Made by a program: the position numbers and the translations under genes. The notes under the pieces are model-generated. The model worked only from the letters and a program-made list of their open reading frames with translations, ran no database searches and had not been told where the DNA came from. This document shows, in pieces, positions 9,268 through 57,204 of a stretch of DNA of 64,000 nt. Every line of letters starts with the position of its first letter. Positions within the stretch are counted from its first letter, which is position 1. The stretch is from an uncultured Deinococcota bacterium (GTDB lineage Bacteria; Deinococcota; Deinococci; Deinococcales; Trueperaceae): NCBI GenBank assembly GCA_947311535.1, contig CAMZLP010000011.1, positions 1-64,000 on the forward strand, read 5' to 3'.

Positions 9268-9729
9268 ATGAAAAGACTAGAAATAGGAGATAATGCGCCC
9301 AAGTTCGAGCTTGAAAGCGTTCAAGGAAAACATAAACTCAGTGACTATGCAGGAAAATGGCTGCTGATTTATTTCTATCCCAAAGACAATACCCCAGGTT
9401 GTACCACTGAAGCCTGTGACTTTAGAGACGCTTTAAAAGATTTAGATATTGAGGTTTTAGGTGTTTCGCCAGATAGTTTAAAATCACATCAAAATTTTAG
9501 TAATAAATACAGCTTGCCTTTTACCCTTCTTTCTGACCCAGATAAAGAAATGGCAACTACCTATTATGCCTATGGTGAAAAGAAAAACTACGGTAAAACA
9601 TATATGGGCATTATTCGTTCAACGTTTATAATAAATCCAGATGGCAAAATTGCCGAGGCTATGTACAATGTACGAGCCAAGGGCCATGTTGAGCGAGTTC
9701 GTAAAAACTTGGCTGAATTACGTGGCTAA
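9268..9729 (+). CDS. bcp: Thioredoxin-dependent peroxiredoxin, Bcp/PrxQ type
   Basis: Bcp reduces hydrogen and organic peroxides using thioredoxin. The 153-residue protein has the PrxQ pattern with peroxidatic C45 and resolving C50 in NTPGCTTEAC, and the conserved IRSTFIINPDGKI near the C-terminus. No signal peptide is present, so it is cytoplasmic. The ATG at 9268 gives the normal family length. It is the first gene of a bcp-rpiA-acpS-DUF72 run with overlapping or near-overlapping junctions. Confidence 0.95.
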   Translation: MKRLEIGDNAPKFELESVQGKHKLSDYAGKWLLIYFYPKDNTPGCTTEACDFRDALKDLDIEVLGVSPDSLKSHQNFSNKYSLPFTLLSDPDKEMATTYYAYGEKKNYGKTYMGIIRSTFIINPDGKIAEAMYNVRAKGHVERVRKNLAELRG

Positions 9730-10411
9730 AGAACTCCTCAAAAAGAAAGTTGCGCTGGCAGCTTTAGAGCATATTAAGTCTGATAGTTTAGTTGGTTTGG
9801 GTACTGGCAGTACCGCCAAATATCTAATAGAGGGCCTGGGTGAGAAAATAAAAAGGGGAGAGCTCAGCAATATAACTGCTATTGCCACCTCAAAAGAAAG
9901 CCATGAGTTAGCTATAAAACAAGGCATAACTATGCTTGAATTATCGCAAAAGGAAATTGATATTGCTATTGATGGTATGGATGAAGTTGACCCAGAACTC
10001 AATCTTGTTAAAGGATTAGGCGGTGCGCTAACTAGAGAAAAGTTAGTCGAAGCTCATGCCAAAAAACTAATCTATATGGCTGATGATTCTAAAATTGTTG
10101 ATTATTTGGGTCAAAAAGCACCTATTCCGGTTGAAGTAATTCAATTTGGATTGGCTGTAACAAAGGCTAAATTGACTAGGCTCGAGCTTAAACCAGTACT
10201 ACGCCTCAAAAACAATCAGGCCTTTATAAGCGACAACGGAAATTATATTTTAGATTGTTATCTAAACTCTAAAAGGGACTTAGAAGAGCTGGCAAATCAA
10301 ATTATTAAAATTCCAGGAGTTGTAGAGCATGGGCTATTTTTAAATATGGCAGATATTGTGTATATTGCCAAAGAGGAGCAAATAATAAAAATGACAAGAG
10401 ATGATAAATGA
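9722..10411 (+). CDS. rpiA: Ribose-5-phosphate isomerase A
   Basis: RpiA interconverts ribose-5-phosphate and ribulose-5-phosphate in the pentose phosphate pathway. The product has the phosphate-binding GLGTGSTAKY, the DGMDEVDPELNLVKGLGGAL segment with the catalytic Asp residues, and REKLVEAHAKK. I choose GTG 9722, giving 229 residues and the usual N-terminus (AKELLKKKVALAAL). The frame continues upstream to an ATG at 9641, but that would add 27 unrelated residues inside bcp. The start overlaps the bcp stop by 8 bases, implying translational coupling. A GCTCGAGC repeat lies at 10180. Confidence 0.93.
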   Translation: MAKELLKKKVALAALEHIKSDSLVGLGTGSTAKYLIEGLGEKIKRGELSNITAIATSKESHELAIKQGITMLELSQKEIDIAIDGMDEVDPELNLVKGLGGALTREKLVEAHAKKLIYMADDSKIVDYLGQKAPIPVEVIQFGLAVTKAKLTRLELKPVLRLKNNQAFISDNGNYILDCYLNSKRDLEELANQIIKIPGVVEHGLFLNMADIVYIAKEEQIIKMTRDDK

Positions 10412-10770
10412 TAAGAGCAATTGGTGTTGATATAGCAGATTTGAGCAGGCTAAAAAAGGTTTGGCAAAAACATCCAGAGCGTTTTTTGTATAGACATTTT
10501 ACCCCAGAAGAAATAAAATATTGCCGTGCCAAGGTTGACCCCTTAGAGTCTATAGCAGCTAGGTTTGCTGCCAAAGAAGCTTTTCAAAAATGCTGGCCCG
10601 AAAACCACGGTTGGCAAGATGTCTGGGTAGAAATGGACGGAGTAAAACCCAAATTACGTTTTGCTAAAAAAATTACCAAAAAAATGCAAGAAGATAATTT
10701 AATTGCTCATTTGAGCTTGTCTCATGACAAAGACCATGCAATTGCTATGGTTGTTTTAGAAGAGCTGTAA
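10408..10770 (+). CDS. acpS: Holo-[acyl-carrier-protein] synthase
   Basis: AcpS transfers the 4'-phosphopantetheine arm from CoA to apo-ACP for fatty acid synthesis. The 120-residue protein has the two family signatures: GVDIADLSRL with the Mg-binding Asp, and SIAARFAAKEAFQKC with the catalytic Glu/Lys. Its ATG overlaps the rpiA stop in an ATGA junction, so it is translationally coupled. Length is typical. Confidence 0.94.
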   Translation: MIRAIGVDIADLSRLKKVWQKHPERFLYRHFTPEEIKYCRAKVDPLESIAARFAAKEAFQKCWPENHGWQDVWVEMDGVKPKLRFAKKITKKMQEDNLIAHLSLSHDKDHAIAMVVLEEL

Positions 10771-28273: not shown

Positions 28274-28470
28274 GTTTATAATCTCCCTATCGAGGGTTTA
28301 TTATAAAGAATGATTTGCTTATGTCAAGCTTTCTAGCTTGCTTATTAAGTTATTTTAGTCTGTTTTGCTATTTTTATTTACTTCTCTAAAAGACTAAAAT
28401 AACTTAGCATGGTTAATAAATCTAATTAACTTGTGGTCAATTATTAGTAAGATGAAATATTGGAGGAGAT

Positions 28471-29505
28471 ATGAAACGAATATTCAGCTTATTGATAATA
28501 ATGTTTTTGCTAAGTTCTTGACCAGGGGCGCCGCTGAGTTGGCATGTAAACTTATTAGATAAAATAGACAAGAAGACTGGTAGTTTTGATATAGATTTGC
28601 CTTTTAGTGGCGGTGAGTTTGATATTTTACCTTTTGTTGGTACTAATAAAACTGGTGCATATAAATTTAATGCCCCACTAGGAGTTATTCCATTTCTGAC
28701 CTTGTCTGCTATTGCCATTCCGGTGGATTACTCTGATCAAACAATATCTGCAAAGTTAACAGCAGCTACTATTAGTTATCAATTAAAACTGGCTCGAATT
28801 GGTGACATCAGTGGTCAATTAAAAATCCAAGCCTTTTTGATAACTACCGATGGTGATATTACTGCAACTAGCAGCAAACTAGGTGATGAGCTTGTTTATG
28901 ATTTGTCAAAGACCCAAGAGGTATTTGACCGAGATGTAGTTTTAAGCTCTGAGCAATTAACGGCTATAAATGAAAAACAATTGAAGATTGCCTTTAAAGT
29001 GAGTGGCAGCTTAAGAGTACTAACTGCTGGTGAAGTTGGGCTTAGTTATGAATTGCAAAAGCTTTCTCTTAAAAATATCAAGCTTGCCATAGATGAAAAA
29101 CTACCTAACAAAAACGGTGAAATTGCTGACTTTAGTGATGCAGATAAAATTACACCACAGGTTGTTGGACTAAGGCTAGACTATCTGCTCGAGCTAATAC
29201 ACAATGGGGATTTTGCTGGTAAGGTTTCTGTGCAGATATTCTTAGCTCCAGTTGATGAAACAGACGTTTTTCAAGAAAAATATAAATTTGGTTCTGCCCA
29301 AGATATTGATTTATCTAAAAATGCTCAAGATATAAAGGCTAATGCAAGTATTAATCAGTTGCAGCTTGCAGCTGCCAGAAAAGACCAGAAATTAAAATAT
29401 GCTATGCAAATAATTGGCGATGTTGGTATAAATAAGGGTGGTAAAATAAGATTTGATTATAAAATTAAAAAACTAGACTTAACTGCATATTTTACAATTT
29501 TATAA
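28471..29505 (+). CDS. Putative lipoprotein with in-frame TGA at the lipobox position
   Basis: A strong Shine-Dalgarno (GGAGGAG) precedes ATG 28471, which opens MKRIFSLLIIMFLLSS, then TGA (28519-28521), then PGAPLSW and the remaining open frame to 29505. The first 16 residues are a lipoprotein signal, and the stop sits exactly where the lipobox cysteine should be; the LEA-like lipoprotein at 50514 has MKRLF...LLSSC. Without the stop the protein would be 344 residues. The body is beta-rich with two similar halves (LDYLLELIHNGDFAGKVSVQ parallels SYQLKLARIGDISGQLKIQ), perhaps related to LEA-type domains. If translation can start only after the stop, the first ATG in frame is at 28675 and earlier GTG/TTG codons are few. 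Function unknown. Confidence 0.55.
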
Positions 29506-29520
29506 AATTAAAAATAAATA

Positions 29521-29550
29521 AAAAAGCCCTTTCAATAAAAGGGCTTTTTT
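29521..29550. terminator. Bidirectional rho-independent terminator
   Basis: GCCCTTT (29526-29532) and AAAGGGC (29538-29544) form a 7-bp stem flanked by A-runs on the left and T-runs on the right, so it works in both directions. It separates the lipoprotein gene and the end of the complex III operon, which converge here. Confidence 0.9.
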
Positions 29551-29569
29551 ATTAAGCTTAAGTAAAATA

Positions 29570-31303: not shown

Positions 31304-32480
31304 GGTTTTCTACCTCGATTATACCTTCTAGTCGCGGGTCGTTTATAGGAACTATAGGACGAGACTTTAATTGAAAGATATAGCTAGCAACCCAAATTCC
31401 ACCTATTCCTAGAAATAGAGCTAAATCTAGCCAGTGAAAAACAAAACCAATTCTTTCAAATGCTGGAATTATGACATAGAAAGTAAATAGTAGTTGAACA
31501 AAAAATGCCCAGATAGATACAATTCCTAAAGCACTGCGTTTGCGTTTTACCCAACGAGATATTAATATGGCAAGGGTTGCAAAAAAGCCGAAGAATAATA
31601 AGAATAAAGAGACAGATCTCCAAGGCTCTTCAAAACGAACTAAATACCAAGTATTGGTCTCGGTAATATTATTTGACCAAATGATTATTAACTGAGCAAA
31701 GTTTACATAAGCCCAAAAAATAATATAAGCCATTAAAAAGTTACCTAAATCTTGCAAGCGTTTTGTTGTTAATAGTTTATCAATAAGCCCTTCTGTTTTG
31801 GCAATATATATCAGGCTAATAATTACCAGACTTAAGGTCGAAATTGTTTGAATAGTAATAAACATAGTGCCATAAATACCGCTATACCAGACTGGTGTAA
31901 TAGACATACCCCAATCAACAGAAGCTAGGGTCATAGTTACAAAGTAAATTATAAACCAAGGTACAGAACTTTTACCCATTCGCAACTGTAGTTTTTTGGC
32001 ATTCTTTTTATCACTGTCTTGTTGGCTACCTGTTTTAACAAAAAACCAAGCACCCAAAATCCACAAGACAAAATAGATGATAGCCCGAATAATAAACCAA
32101 GTCTGGTTTAAATACTCTGCTTTAGCTGCTACCGTAGGATGAATTGCTAAATAATCTGAGCTGAGCCAAGGATAAAGATGGCTCATACCTAATACGATAG
32201 GCACAAATAGCAAAGCCATGACTGGTAAAACCATCATTGCAGCCTCTAAAGGGCGACGGATGGTAGCTCCCCAAGAGCCACCAGCTATATGCTGAGTTAG
32301 TAAAAGTGGAAAGCCACCAAGTGACAAACCAATCCAAAATAAGTAAGCCAGTAAGTAAGCCTGCATAAAGCTTGTTGTATCATTAAAAGCTCCTAGTGCA
32401 GCGGCTAAAAGACCAACTATGCCTATAATTAGAGCTATTAGTTGAATACGGTTAATACTTGAGATAGAAGCACTATTCAT
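31296..32480 (-). CDS. actF: Alternative complex III subunit ActF
   Basis: ActF is an NrfD-like integral membrane subunit of alternative complex III, which oxidises quinol and reduces cytochrome c or passes electrons to an oxidase. The 394-residue protein has about ten helices, including the typical start LLAYLFWIGLSLGGFPLLL and AGGSWGATIRRPLEAA. It is about as long as other ActF proteins. Start overlaps the actE end by 4 bases. Confidence 0.9.
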   Translation of the reverse strand: MNSASISSINRIQLIALIIGIVGLLAAALGAFNDTTSFMQAYLLAYLFWIGLSLGGFPLLLTQHIAGGSWGATIRRPLEAAMMVLPVMALLFVPIVLGMSHLYPWLSSDYLAIHPTVAAKAEYLNQTWFIIRAIIYFVLWILGAWFFVKTGSQQDSDKKNAKKLQLRMGKSSVPWFIIYFVTMTLASVDWGMSITPVWYSGIYGTMFITIQTISTLSLVIISLIYIAKTEGLIDKLLTTKRLQDLGNFLMAYIIFWAYVNFAQLIIIWSNNITETNTWYLVRFEEPWRSVSLFLLFFGFFATLAILISRWVKRKRSALGIVSIWAFFVQLLFTFYVIIPAFERIGFVFHWLDLALFLGIGGIWVASYIFQLKSRPIVPINDPRLEGIIEVENHG

Positions 32481-33070
32481 TCGCTTGCTCCTTTAAAATT
32501 TGATCTAAACTCAGCAGGAATATCTTCCAAATTGGCACGTTGGCTAAATTGGAGGGCCTTAATATATGCTGATATTGCCCAACGGTCTTCTGGTTGAATT
32601 CGCGATGCATAGCTAAACATACGCCCAAAACCATTGGTCATTGCTCCATAATAATAGCCAACAGGGGCAGCAACTAAGCGCGGCTCTAAGAAAGATGTTG
32701 GTTGGGGCATGCCTTTTTGAACAATTATACCGTCACCAGTGGCTGTGTAGTTATGGCAAGGTGCGCAGTAAATATTAAAACGTTCCTGCCCTCTTAGTAA
32801 TAACTCTTTAGTTAGGGTGACAGGTAGCTCACTGAGCATGCCGTTATCATCTTGGCCTGTTAGAAATGAGCTATCTAAAGCCCCTCTTTCTCTGGACACA
32901 GTACCAGCAATTAATTCACGGTTAGAAGATTGATTAGCAAAATATGGGCTTGCTTCATTGACTTGAAATTTTGGCTGGTCAAACATATTTGCACCGCAAG
33001 CACTAATAAAAAAACTAAGAGCTATTAGTAAACCTATTAAGCTTGATTTTTTGATGAAGACTAAGTTCAT
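32477..33070 (-). CDS. actE: Alternative complex III subunit ActE (lipoprotein cytochrome c)
   Basis: The 197-residue protein has a lipoprotein signal with FISAC as the lipobox. Its mono-haem cytochrome c domain has the CXXCH site in IYCAPCHNYTATGDG, and a likely Met ligand in QKGMPQP. ActE is the mono-haem periplasmic subunit of the complex. It overlaps actD and actF by 4 bases each. Confidence 0.92.
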   Translation of the reverse strand: MNLVFIKKSSLIGLLIALSFFISACGANMFDQPKFQVNEASPYFANQSSNRELIAGTVSRERGALDSSFLTGQDDNGMLSELPVTLTKELLLRGQERFNIYCAPCHNYTATGDGIIVQKGMPQPTSFLEPRLVAAPVGYYYGAMTNGFGRMFSYASRIQPEDRWAISAYIKALQFSQRANLEDIPAEFRSNFKGASE

Positions 33071-33600
33071 AGCTCCACCTCTTCAACATAATTAGGATTT
33101 AGCGATGCCAAAAAATCTTTAGTTTTATTTAAATTGAATTTCTTGTCTTTTGATTCAATGCATAATACAAACTTGTCACCAGTAATATTTTGAGCTTTTT
33201 CCATATTAAATATTGGGTGATAGGGTCTTGGTAGGCCATTGCGACCTAACATAAAAAGCCCAGCTGTAAACGCAGAAAATAAAATCGTAAACTCAAAGGT
33301 GATAATCACAAAGTTAGGCCAACTATTCATCGGCTTACCACCTGCATTTAACGGATAGAAGTAAGTGTTTGCATAATACTGCATAAAAAAGCCAGTAAGT
33401 GCGCCTATAATAGCCATTCCTAAAACTACCCAGCCAAGGCGTGTTTCTTTTTGTCCCAAGGCATTTGGTAAATCTTCGATAGGGAAGGGCACATAGGCAT
33501 CCATATTTTTGTATCCAGCAGAATTAGCTTTTTTTGCAGCTTCAATGATTTCTTCTGGAGAATTGAACTCGGCAGCTAATCCAAAAAGCTCTTTGCTCAT
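33067..33600 (-). CDS. actD: Alternative complex III subunit ActD
   Basis: The 177-residue protein matches the DUF3341 ActD subunit. It has a soluble N-terminus (FGLAAEFNSPEEIIEAAKKA, DAYVPFPIEDLPNALG), then two membrane helices around residues 57-72 and 97-117, and a periplasmic or cytoplasmic tail with NGLPRPYHPIFN. It is a small membrane subunit with no cofactor motif. Overlaps actC by 4 bases. Confidence 0.9.
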   Translation of the reverse strand: MSKELFGLAAEFNSPEEIIEAAKKANSAGYKNMDAYVPFPIEDLPNALGQKETRLGWVVLGMAIIGALTGFFMQYYANTYFYPLNAGGKPMNSWPNFVIITFEFTILFSAFTAGLFMLGRNGLPRPYHPIFNMEKAQNITGDKFVLCIESKDKKFNLNKTKDFLASLNPNYVEEVEL

Positions 33601-43214: not shown

Positions 43215-44384
43215 TTAATTAAAAAAATGTGAAGCGATATCTCTAGCATAAGAGTCACTGTGGTTGCTGGCTACTTCTTTTAGCAAGCTTTGACCATGAT
43301 GACCTTTTTGAGCTAATATTGAAGCAGCATTAAATCTTACCCACCAAGCATCATCAGAGATTGCTTCTACTAAATAACCATCAATTTGCTTACTTAATAC
43401 GCCAATTGATGCCTTAACGGCCTGATTTCTAACAAACCAGTTAGGGCTTTTTAAGGCTTTATATACTTCACTGTAAGCATGTGCAGGTACATAGCGCATA
43501 TTTGCTAATGCTTTTAGGGCAGTGGCTGTTATTTCTGGATTATAGGTGCTTAGCTAGGGGATACACCAGTCTGCCCATTGTAAATTAGCAAAATGACCGA
43601 TTGCACTAAGACTAGCTTGTATTTGCTTTTGTCTGACATTTGGCCTACTCAAATAATAAAGAGGTCCTTCTGCATTATTACCCAATAGTACTAATGCTTC
43701 TTCTATAATTCCCATTGAAAACCTATCTGAATCAATTATAGGGATAAAAATTTCAATTATTTTTTCTTTATCTAGGTCTACTTTTGAATATGTTTTTGCA
43801 AGAGCAAAAAATGCTAAAATCGAGATTTCACGTACGGAGCTTTTTATCTCTTTTTGAAGTATTGCAGTGTTGCTAATATCGGATATCGTTGCTAAATGCT
43901 CGAGTACTTGAGCTTTGGATTCAGAGAGATTGGATCGCCTTAATATTTTTAAGTCATTTTTCCATAAACCACTGACAAGGTAGATTTCTTTAAACTTGTC
44001 TTGATAATCTAAAGAAATATTTTCAGCCATTTCAACAAGAGCGTCAACGGCAATAGTATCTTTTGTTAGAGGTATAGCAGCAGAATTCCATAATACATCA
44101 TTCCAGATTTCCAACCACTTATCTTTGTTGCTTTGATACCTTAGACGTTGCTTATCCGTACCAAGATAGTGCAATATTTGAAAAAAGACCAAATTAAATA
44201 AAAATATTGAAATTGAAATCACTGCAATTAAAATAATTGAAATGATTTTGCCGTTTTTAATATCCACGAATAGATTTAGGGCTAAAGTAGTAGTTACTAC
44301 TAGCAATGAAAGGCTGAGGACCAGGAAGCCAATAAAGCTCAGAAGGCTGATTGTTCTAACTGCTATCCGTTGCCACACAGGCAT
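43215..44384 (-). pseudogene. HEAT-repeat membrane protein interrupted by TAG
   Basis: A single frame runs from 44384 to 43215 (389 codons), broken once by TAG at 43554-43556 (codon 277). Downstream, LSTYNPEITATALKALANMR then YVPAHAYSEVYKAL continues the same HEAT-repeat pattern without a break. The N-terminus has two membrane helices (about residues 10-35 and 45-68), then about six helical repeats. Next to a GT2 gene this resembles known pairs in which a HEAT protein assists a polysaccharide synthase. If the stop is real, translation could restart only at the ATG at 43499, without the membrane helices. A CAG-to-TAG change is the simplest origin. As two separate genes it would be 43554-44384 and 43215-43499. 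Confidence 0.75.
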
Positions 44385-56763: not shown

Positions 56764-57204
56764 TCAAAACTTATAAACAGGAGCTTTCCAATAATTCATT
56801 CCTTCTAAAGCTGAACCAGCTAATCTACGTAAGATAGCAAGTTGCCCAACATGAGTCATAACATCAGCTAAAGGGCCTTGCCAAAGATTTTCAGCTTGCA
56901 TTAGCTTATTGCTAAATTCAGCCCCGGTTGCCAAAGATTGGTCAAAATCTTTTAGCTTTTGTAAAAACCGTGCTGATTCTCCTTGTCAATCTAGTTCTTT
57001 TGGCTTAGCTTCTTCAATATTTTCAAATTGCTTGTAGGCAAAATTTAATACTGCTGTCATATGCCTTAGTATTTCTAGCGGTGTTCTAAGACCTTGCCCT
57101 GCCTCAAAGTTAGCAAAATTACTAGGTAAATCTTTGGCCAAATATGTAAACCTAAAAGCAATTGCCGATAAGTAGACCTGAACTGAATCATTATCAATTT
57201 TCAT
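56764..57204 (-). pseudogene. DinB-like family gene interrupted by TGA
   Basis: The frame from ATG 57204 reads to KPKELD, then TGA (56986-56988), then continues unbroken as QGESARFLQKLKDFDQSLAT and on to PLADVMTHVGQLAILRRLAG before a second TGA at 56764-56766. The two parts together form a 146-residue DinB-type four-helix protein with both halves of the conserved domain. By memory of relatives, the residue at the stop is usually Trp, so TGG-to-TGA is the simplest origin. Histidines typical of the metal site remain (RHMTAVLNF, THVGQLAI). It may be a recent nonsense mutation, a sequencing error or recoding. Confidence 0.75.

Follow-up and report, generated by a model that had tools for sequence, protein, structure and literature searches.

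A TGA at the lipobox cysteine position of a Deinococcota lipoprotein gene is best explained as a lone nonsense lesion

Results

An in-frame TGA in an otherwise intact lipoprotein gene

The window analysed here is the whole stretch of 64,000 nucleotides taken from one contig of an uncultured Deinococcota bacterium. On its forward strand, a Shine-Dalgarno sequence, GGAGGAG (28462–28468), lies just upstream of an ATG codon at 28471, which opens a lipoprotein signal peptide, MKRIFSLLIIMFLLSS (28471–28518). This translated peptide aligns with the signal peptides of homologues and ends with the lipobox residues L-S-S; the place of the cysteine is taken by an in-frame TGA (28519–28521), in a column that is invariantly Cys in the homologues. 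The first-pass annotation had described the same arrangement, a strong Shine-Dalgarno sequence and a lipoprotein signal running into a TGA at the cysteine. It had also reported that the frame stays open for 328 codons; the frame is open, but we count 327 sense codons (28522–29502) before the TAA at 29503–29505. Homologues, codon usage and a structure model indicate that this remaining frame (28522–29505, forward strand) encodes two tandem domains. A terminator-like hairpin followed by a T-run (29517–29553, no strand assigned) lies after the gene. No second lesion is present: the Shine-Dalgarno sequence, the signal, the full frame and the terminator are all intact. Of the parts of a bacterial lipoprotein signal (positive n-region, hydrophobic core and lipobox [LVI][ASTVI][GAS]C), the window gene has the n-region, the core and L-S-S, the TGA replacing the Cys, and the homologues have all of them. 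When the TGA was read as Cys, LPAM_1 (PF08139) gave a weak match below its cut-off.

The open stretch downstream of the TGA is not due to chance: (i) at its own base composition, the probability of 327 open codons is ∼4e-11, (ii) in codon usage it scores 0.30 bits per codon, inside the range of the long genes of the genome (median 0.26), and (iii) homologues cover the entire frame. Two simple ways around the stop were considered and rejected. Internal restart would use, as first in-frame start past the TGA, a TTG at 28597, which lies within the homologous region, and the signal peptide would be lost; a frameshift at the TGA is discounted since the frame is the same on either side of the stop. 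Across 329 kb sampled from the genome, a lipobox-like signal ending in TGA was seen only at 28519; the other stop-at-Cys match is a TAA without Shine-Dalgarno sequence, and the Cys-bearing lipoproteins found in this sample use TGC or TGT.

A patchily distributed lipoprotein family with an invariant cysteine

The interrupted gene belongs, as a two-domain form, to a lipoprotein family of the Deinococcota. This family is patchily distributed, whole-genome searches having found relatives in 33 of the 111 genomes of the order; a scan of genome contigs with the protein found no relative. Most homologues have one domain and about 180–230 residues, and two tandem domains were seen in the window gene and in genome G009. 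The lipobox residue is Cys, encoded by TGC or TGT, in 27/27 homologues with a placeable lipobox, a count that omits L218, in which the pattern found no lipobox, and L211, in which the match fell in a neighbouring gene. The TGA thus strikes an invariant residue. It is shared by no homologue and, among the 33 matching genomes of the order, occurs only in that of the window (G000).

A Pfam search with the part downstream of the TGA matched no family. The structure model comprises two beta-rich domains (mean pLDDT 74), and fold comparison gave a weak full-length match to the Parabacteroides secreted protein 4h3w (TM 0.46, 12% identity), the lower-ranked matches being generic beta-sandwich proteins and uninformative. 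One distant homologue, in genome G091 (L217:1501-1908, G091:C42), has kept its lipobox Cys but is interrupted mid-gene by an in-frame TAG of its own. This homologue, in another family, shows that single nonsense lesions also arise elsewhere among these lipoproteins, and it partly bears out the random damage in relatives' copies that the first-pass annotation had named as refuting its observation, the lesion being unrelated to the TGA studied here.

The host is a Truepera-like member of the Deinococcota, as the taxonomic marker in the window, the membrane subunit of alternative complex III, is 69% identical to that of a Truepera MAG and 70% to that of a Deinococcales MAG. The genome is low in GC (37% in the window). 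It carries lspA, so normal lipoproteins can be processed.

UGA is an ordinary stop codon in this genome

The RF2 gene, prfB, was found above cut-off with its classic UGA +1 frameshift autoregulation, and TGA terminates 65 of the 368 confident genes of a 533-kb sample. UGA is therefore an ordinary stop in this genome. In the window, 12 of the 57 open reading frames end with TGA, some of these stops lying within ATGA overlaps (33067-33600 with 32477-33070 on the reverse strand; 9641-10411 with 10408-10770 on the forward strand). The programmed frameshift of prfB, present in the genome at L025, resembles the lipoprotein case in that an in-frame UGA, functional in prfB, stands early in the gene; however, the lipoprotein frame is unchanged after the TGA and no frameshift is involved. 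A single tRNA-Trp(CCA) was found; it has G24, A9 and an anticodon stem of 5 bp, and a suppressor tRNA-Trp was rejected on this ground. None of the features named for UGA-reading tRNA-Trp variants is seen in it (PMC13092985).

The machinery for selenocysteine insertion was sought in the assembly, which is 92% complete, and the absences reported here hold as far as that allows. Neither selA nor selD had a match, the selB matches were GTPase paralogues below the family cut-off, and the weak matches to tRNA-Sec were ordinary Leu, Ser, Cys, Trp, Gly and Glu tRNAs; the genome search for selA, selB and selC suggested by the first-pass annotation thus yielded no true gene. No UCA anticodon occurs among the 34 tRNAs found, an absence that is not absolute since the assembly is incomplete and a few expected tRNAs are missing from it (none was seen for Asn). 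No stable SECIS-like hairpin follows the UGA: folding across four stretches was weaker than that of shuffled sequence (z about +1). The Rfam matches near the gene are low-scoring, centred on the AT-rich terminator, and include no SECIS family.

Other interrupted genes in the assembly

A codon-usage survey for stops inside coding frames, covering about 533 kb of genome stretches, returned a handful of interrupted frames. It recovered prfB (L040:5329), an internal positive control; the "1 TAG, 1 TAA" flagged inside this gene merely reflects the zero frame that precedes the normal +1 frameshift. Two further genes of the window, both on the reverse strand, contain a single stop. A DinB-like gene (56770–57204; PF12867 match sub-threshold) has one TGA at 56986–56984, a codon that encodes Trp in 8 of the 11 homologues, and a membrane/HEAT-repeat gene (43218–44384) has one TAG at 43556–43554, where the three closest homologues, all uninterrupted, have Trp. 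Elsewhere in the assembly, a single TAG interrupts a frame at L107:4197 (G000:C186) that looks coding both before and after it. In rho (L032:6387-6420, G000:C120), the Shine-Dalgarno sequence and ATG are out of frame with the body of the gene, with a one-base break in an A8 run that is either an assembly indel or RNA polymerase slippage. With TAG-broken genes and the rho frame break beside the TGA cases, the lesions in this assembly are not limited to TGA or to Cys.

Discussion

We consider, with a probability of about 0.9, that the TGA of the lipoprotein gene is a lone nonsense lesion that arose by recent mutation or through an error in the assembly. This reading is supported by the fact that (i) 27 homologues keep the Cys without a stop and none shares the TGA, (ii) no selenocysteine machinery was found and TGA is a normal stop with its RF2, (iii) two more genes of the window have single stops, one of them a TAG, in addition to the L107 TAG and the rho break, and (iv) the family is patchy. 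A single substitution, TGC or TGT to TGA, would have hit the lipobox cysteine of an outer-surface lipoprotein gene. Ribosomes starting at 28471 would then be released by RF2 after 16 residues, and termination at the TGA probably dominates; as such release leaves neither mature domain nor lipid anchor, the gene as assembled would be null. A real mutation is, on balance, the probable source, and the gene would then be dispensable as well as patchily distributed, and either a young pseudogene or polymorphic between strains; a consensus error of the metagenome assembly, at somewhat below even odds, is a serious alternative. Among the options listed by the first-pass annotation, a point mutation or read error from TGC or TGT is accordingly the best supported.

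Bacterial genes that are intact but for one in-frame nonsense substitution are known: according to Belinky et al. 2021 (PMC7918605), stops of this kind occur widely among bacteria and are usually short-lived, and the lipoprotein TGA thus appears to be another instance of this phenomenon. As in those cases, one stop lies in a conserved frame, without further decay, and is not shared by relatives; in contrast to them, it falls exactly on the lipid-anchor cysteine, where even ordinary Trp readthrough would restore no lipoprotein. For this genome, we computed that about 3–4% of random single-step mutations to TGA originate from Cys codons and 11–29% from Trp codons, so the Cys position is a somewhat unusual target, though the finding was selected for that. 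The occurrence of two near-cognate TGA sites is mildly unusual, but one was preselected and the sample is tiny. The intact gene parts are also expected of a functional recoded gene, and this counts against the reading as a lone lesion. The first-pass annotation took the lack of any other stop downstream as a sign of selection. The lack of a stop stands, but the inference is weak: a further stop becomes 95% likely only after about 7–9% neutral substitutions per site, so a recent lesion would look the same and the lack of further stops is no proof of selection.

Functional readthrough, in which a near-cognate tRNA would decode the UGA at a low level and give little full-length protein, is improbable. 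UGA followed by C is a leaky context, and the UGA at 28519–28521 is followed by C; the frame past it is intact, and the second TGA of the window takes the place of a conserved Trp, the residue that near-cognate decoding usually inserts. However, Lgt and LspA require cysteine, so the ordinary insertion of Trp would allow neither Lgt lipidation nor LspA cleavage and would yield no lipoprotein, which could arise only from Cys insertion. Although TGA is considered a leaky stop in bacteria (PMC7918605), the third interrupted gene of the window is broken by a TAG, no homologue shares the lipoprotein TGA, and the tRNA-Trp(CCA) shows no feature that PMC13092985 names for UGA reading. Readthrough, which the first-pass annotation had put forward, gained no positive support. 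A variant, very unlikely in our view, is that a leaky UGA is naturally kept at the lipobox as a switch, rare Cys insertion giving traces of lipidated protein and Trp insertion an unlipidated, membrane-tethered form; one gene would then give two differently anchored products.

Selenocysteine insertion at the lipobox, giving a selenolipoprotein, was another suggestion of the first-pass annotation. Textbook searches for selenoproteins look for a TGA at a Cys position, and bacterial selenoproteins (SelA/SelB/SelC/SelD, SECIS) likewise have TGA where homologues carry Cys; yet in the 92%-complete assembly selA, selD, tRNA-Sec, a UCA anticodon and a SECIS-like hairpin were all missing, selB stayed below cut-off, the Cys concerned serves lipidation rather than redox chemistry, and a literature search on lipobox and selenocysteine gave no such case by title and abstract, which leaves this explanation next to no chance. 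Equally negligible is the possibility that UGA has been reassigned, throughout the genome or in part, to Cys or Trp: the two in-frame TGAs of the window do stand at Cys and Trp positions, but TGA ends genes in the window and the sample alike, including within ATGA overlaps, prfB is intact and itself UGA-autoregulated, no UCA tRNA was among those found, and other lipoproteins encode their cysteine by TGC or TGT.

As it stands, the lipoprotein TGA matters little, since it would mark a null or mis-assembled gene. It serves as a warning for annotation that a TGA at a conserved Cys is insufficient to call recoding, and, given several single-base frame lesions in this assembly, annotators should handle its broken genes with care. 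The locus also adds a lineage-specific Deinococcota lipoprotein family, including a two-domain form, for which no Pfam family matched.

Two features were observed upstream of the gene. A 19-nt inverted repeat (28346–28406; 95% complementary, 23-nt spacer) lies between the lipoprotein gene and the divergent topA, and a perfect consensus sigma-70-type promoter (28327–28300, reverse strand; 12 of 12 positions, 16-nt spacer) is directed towards topA.
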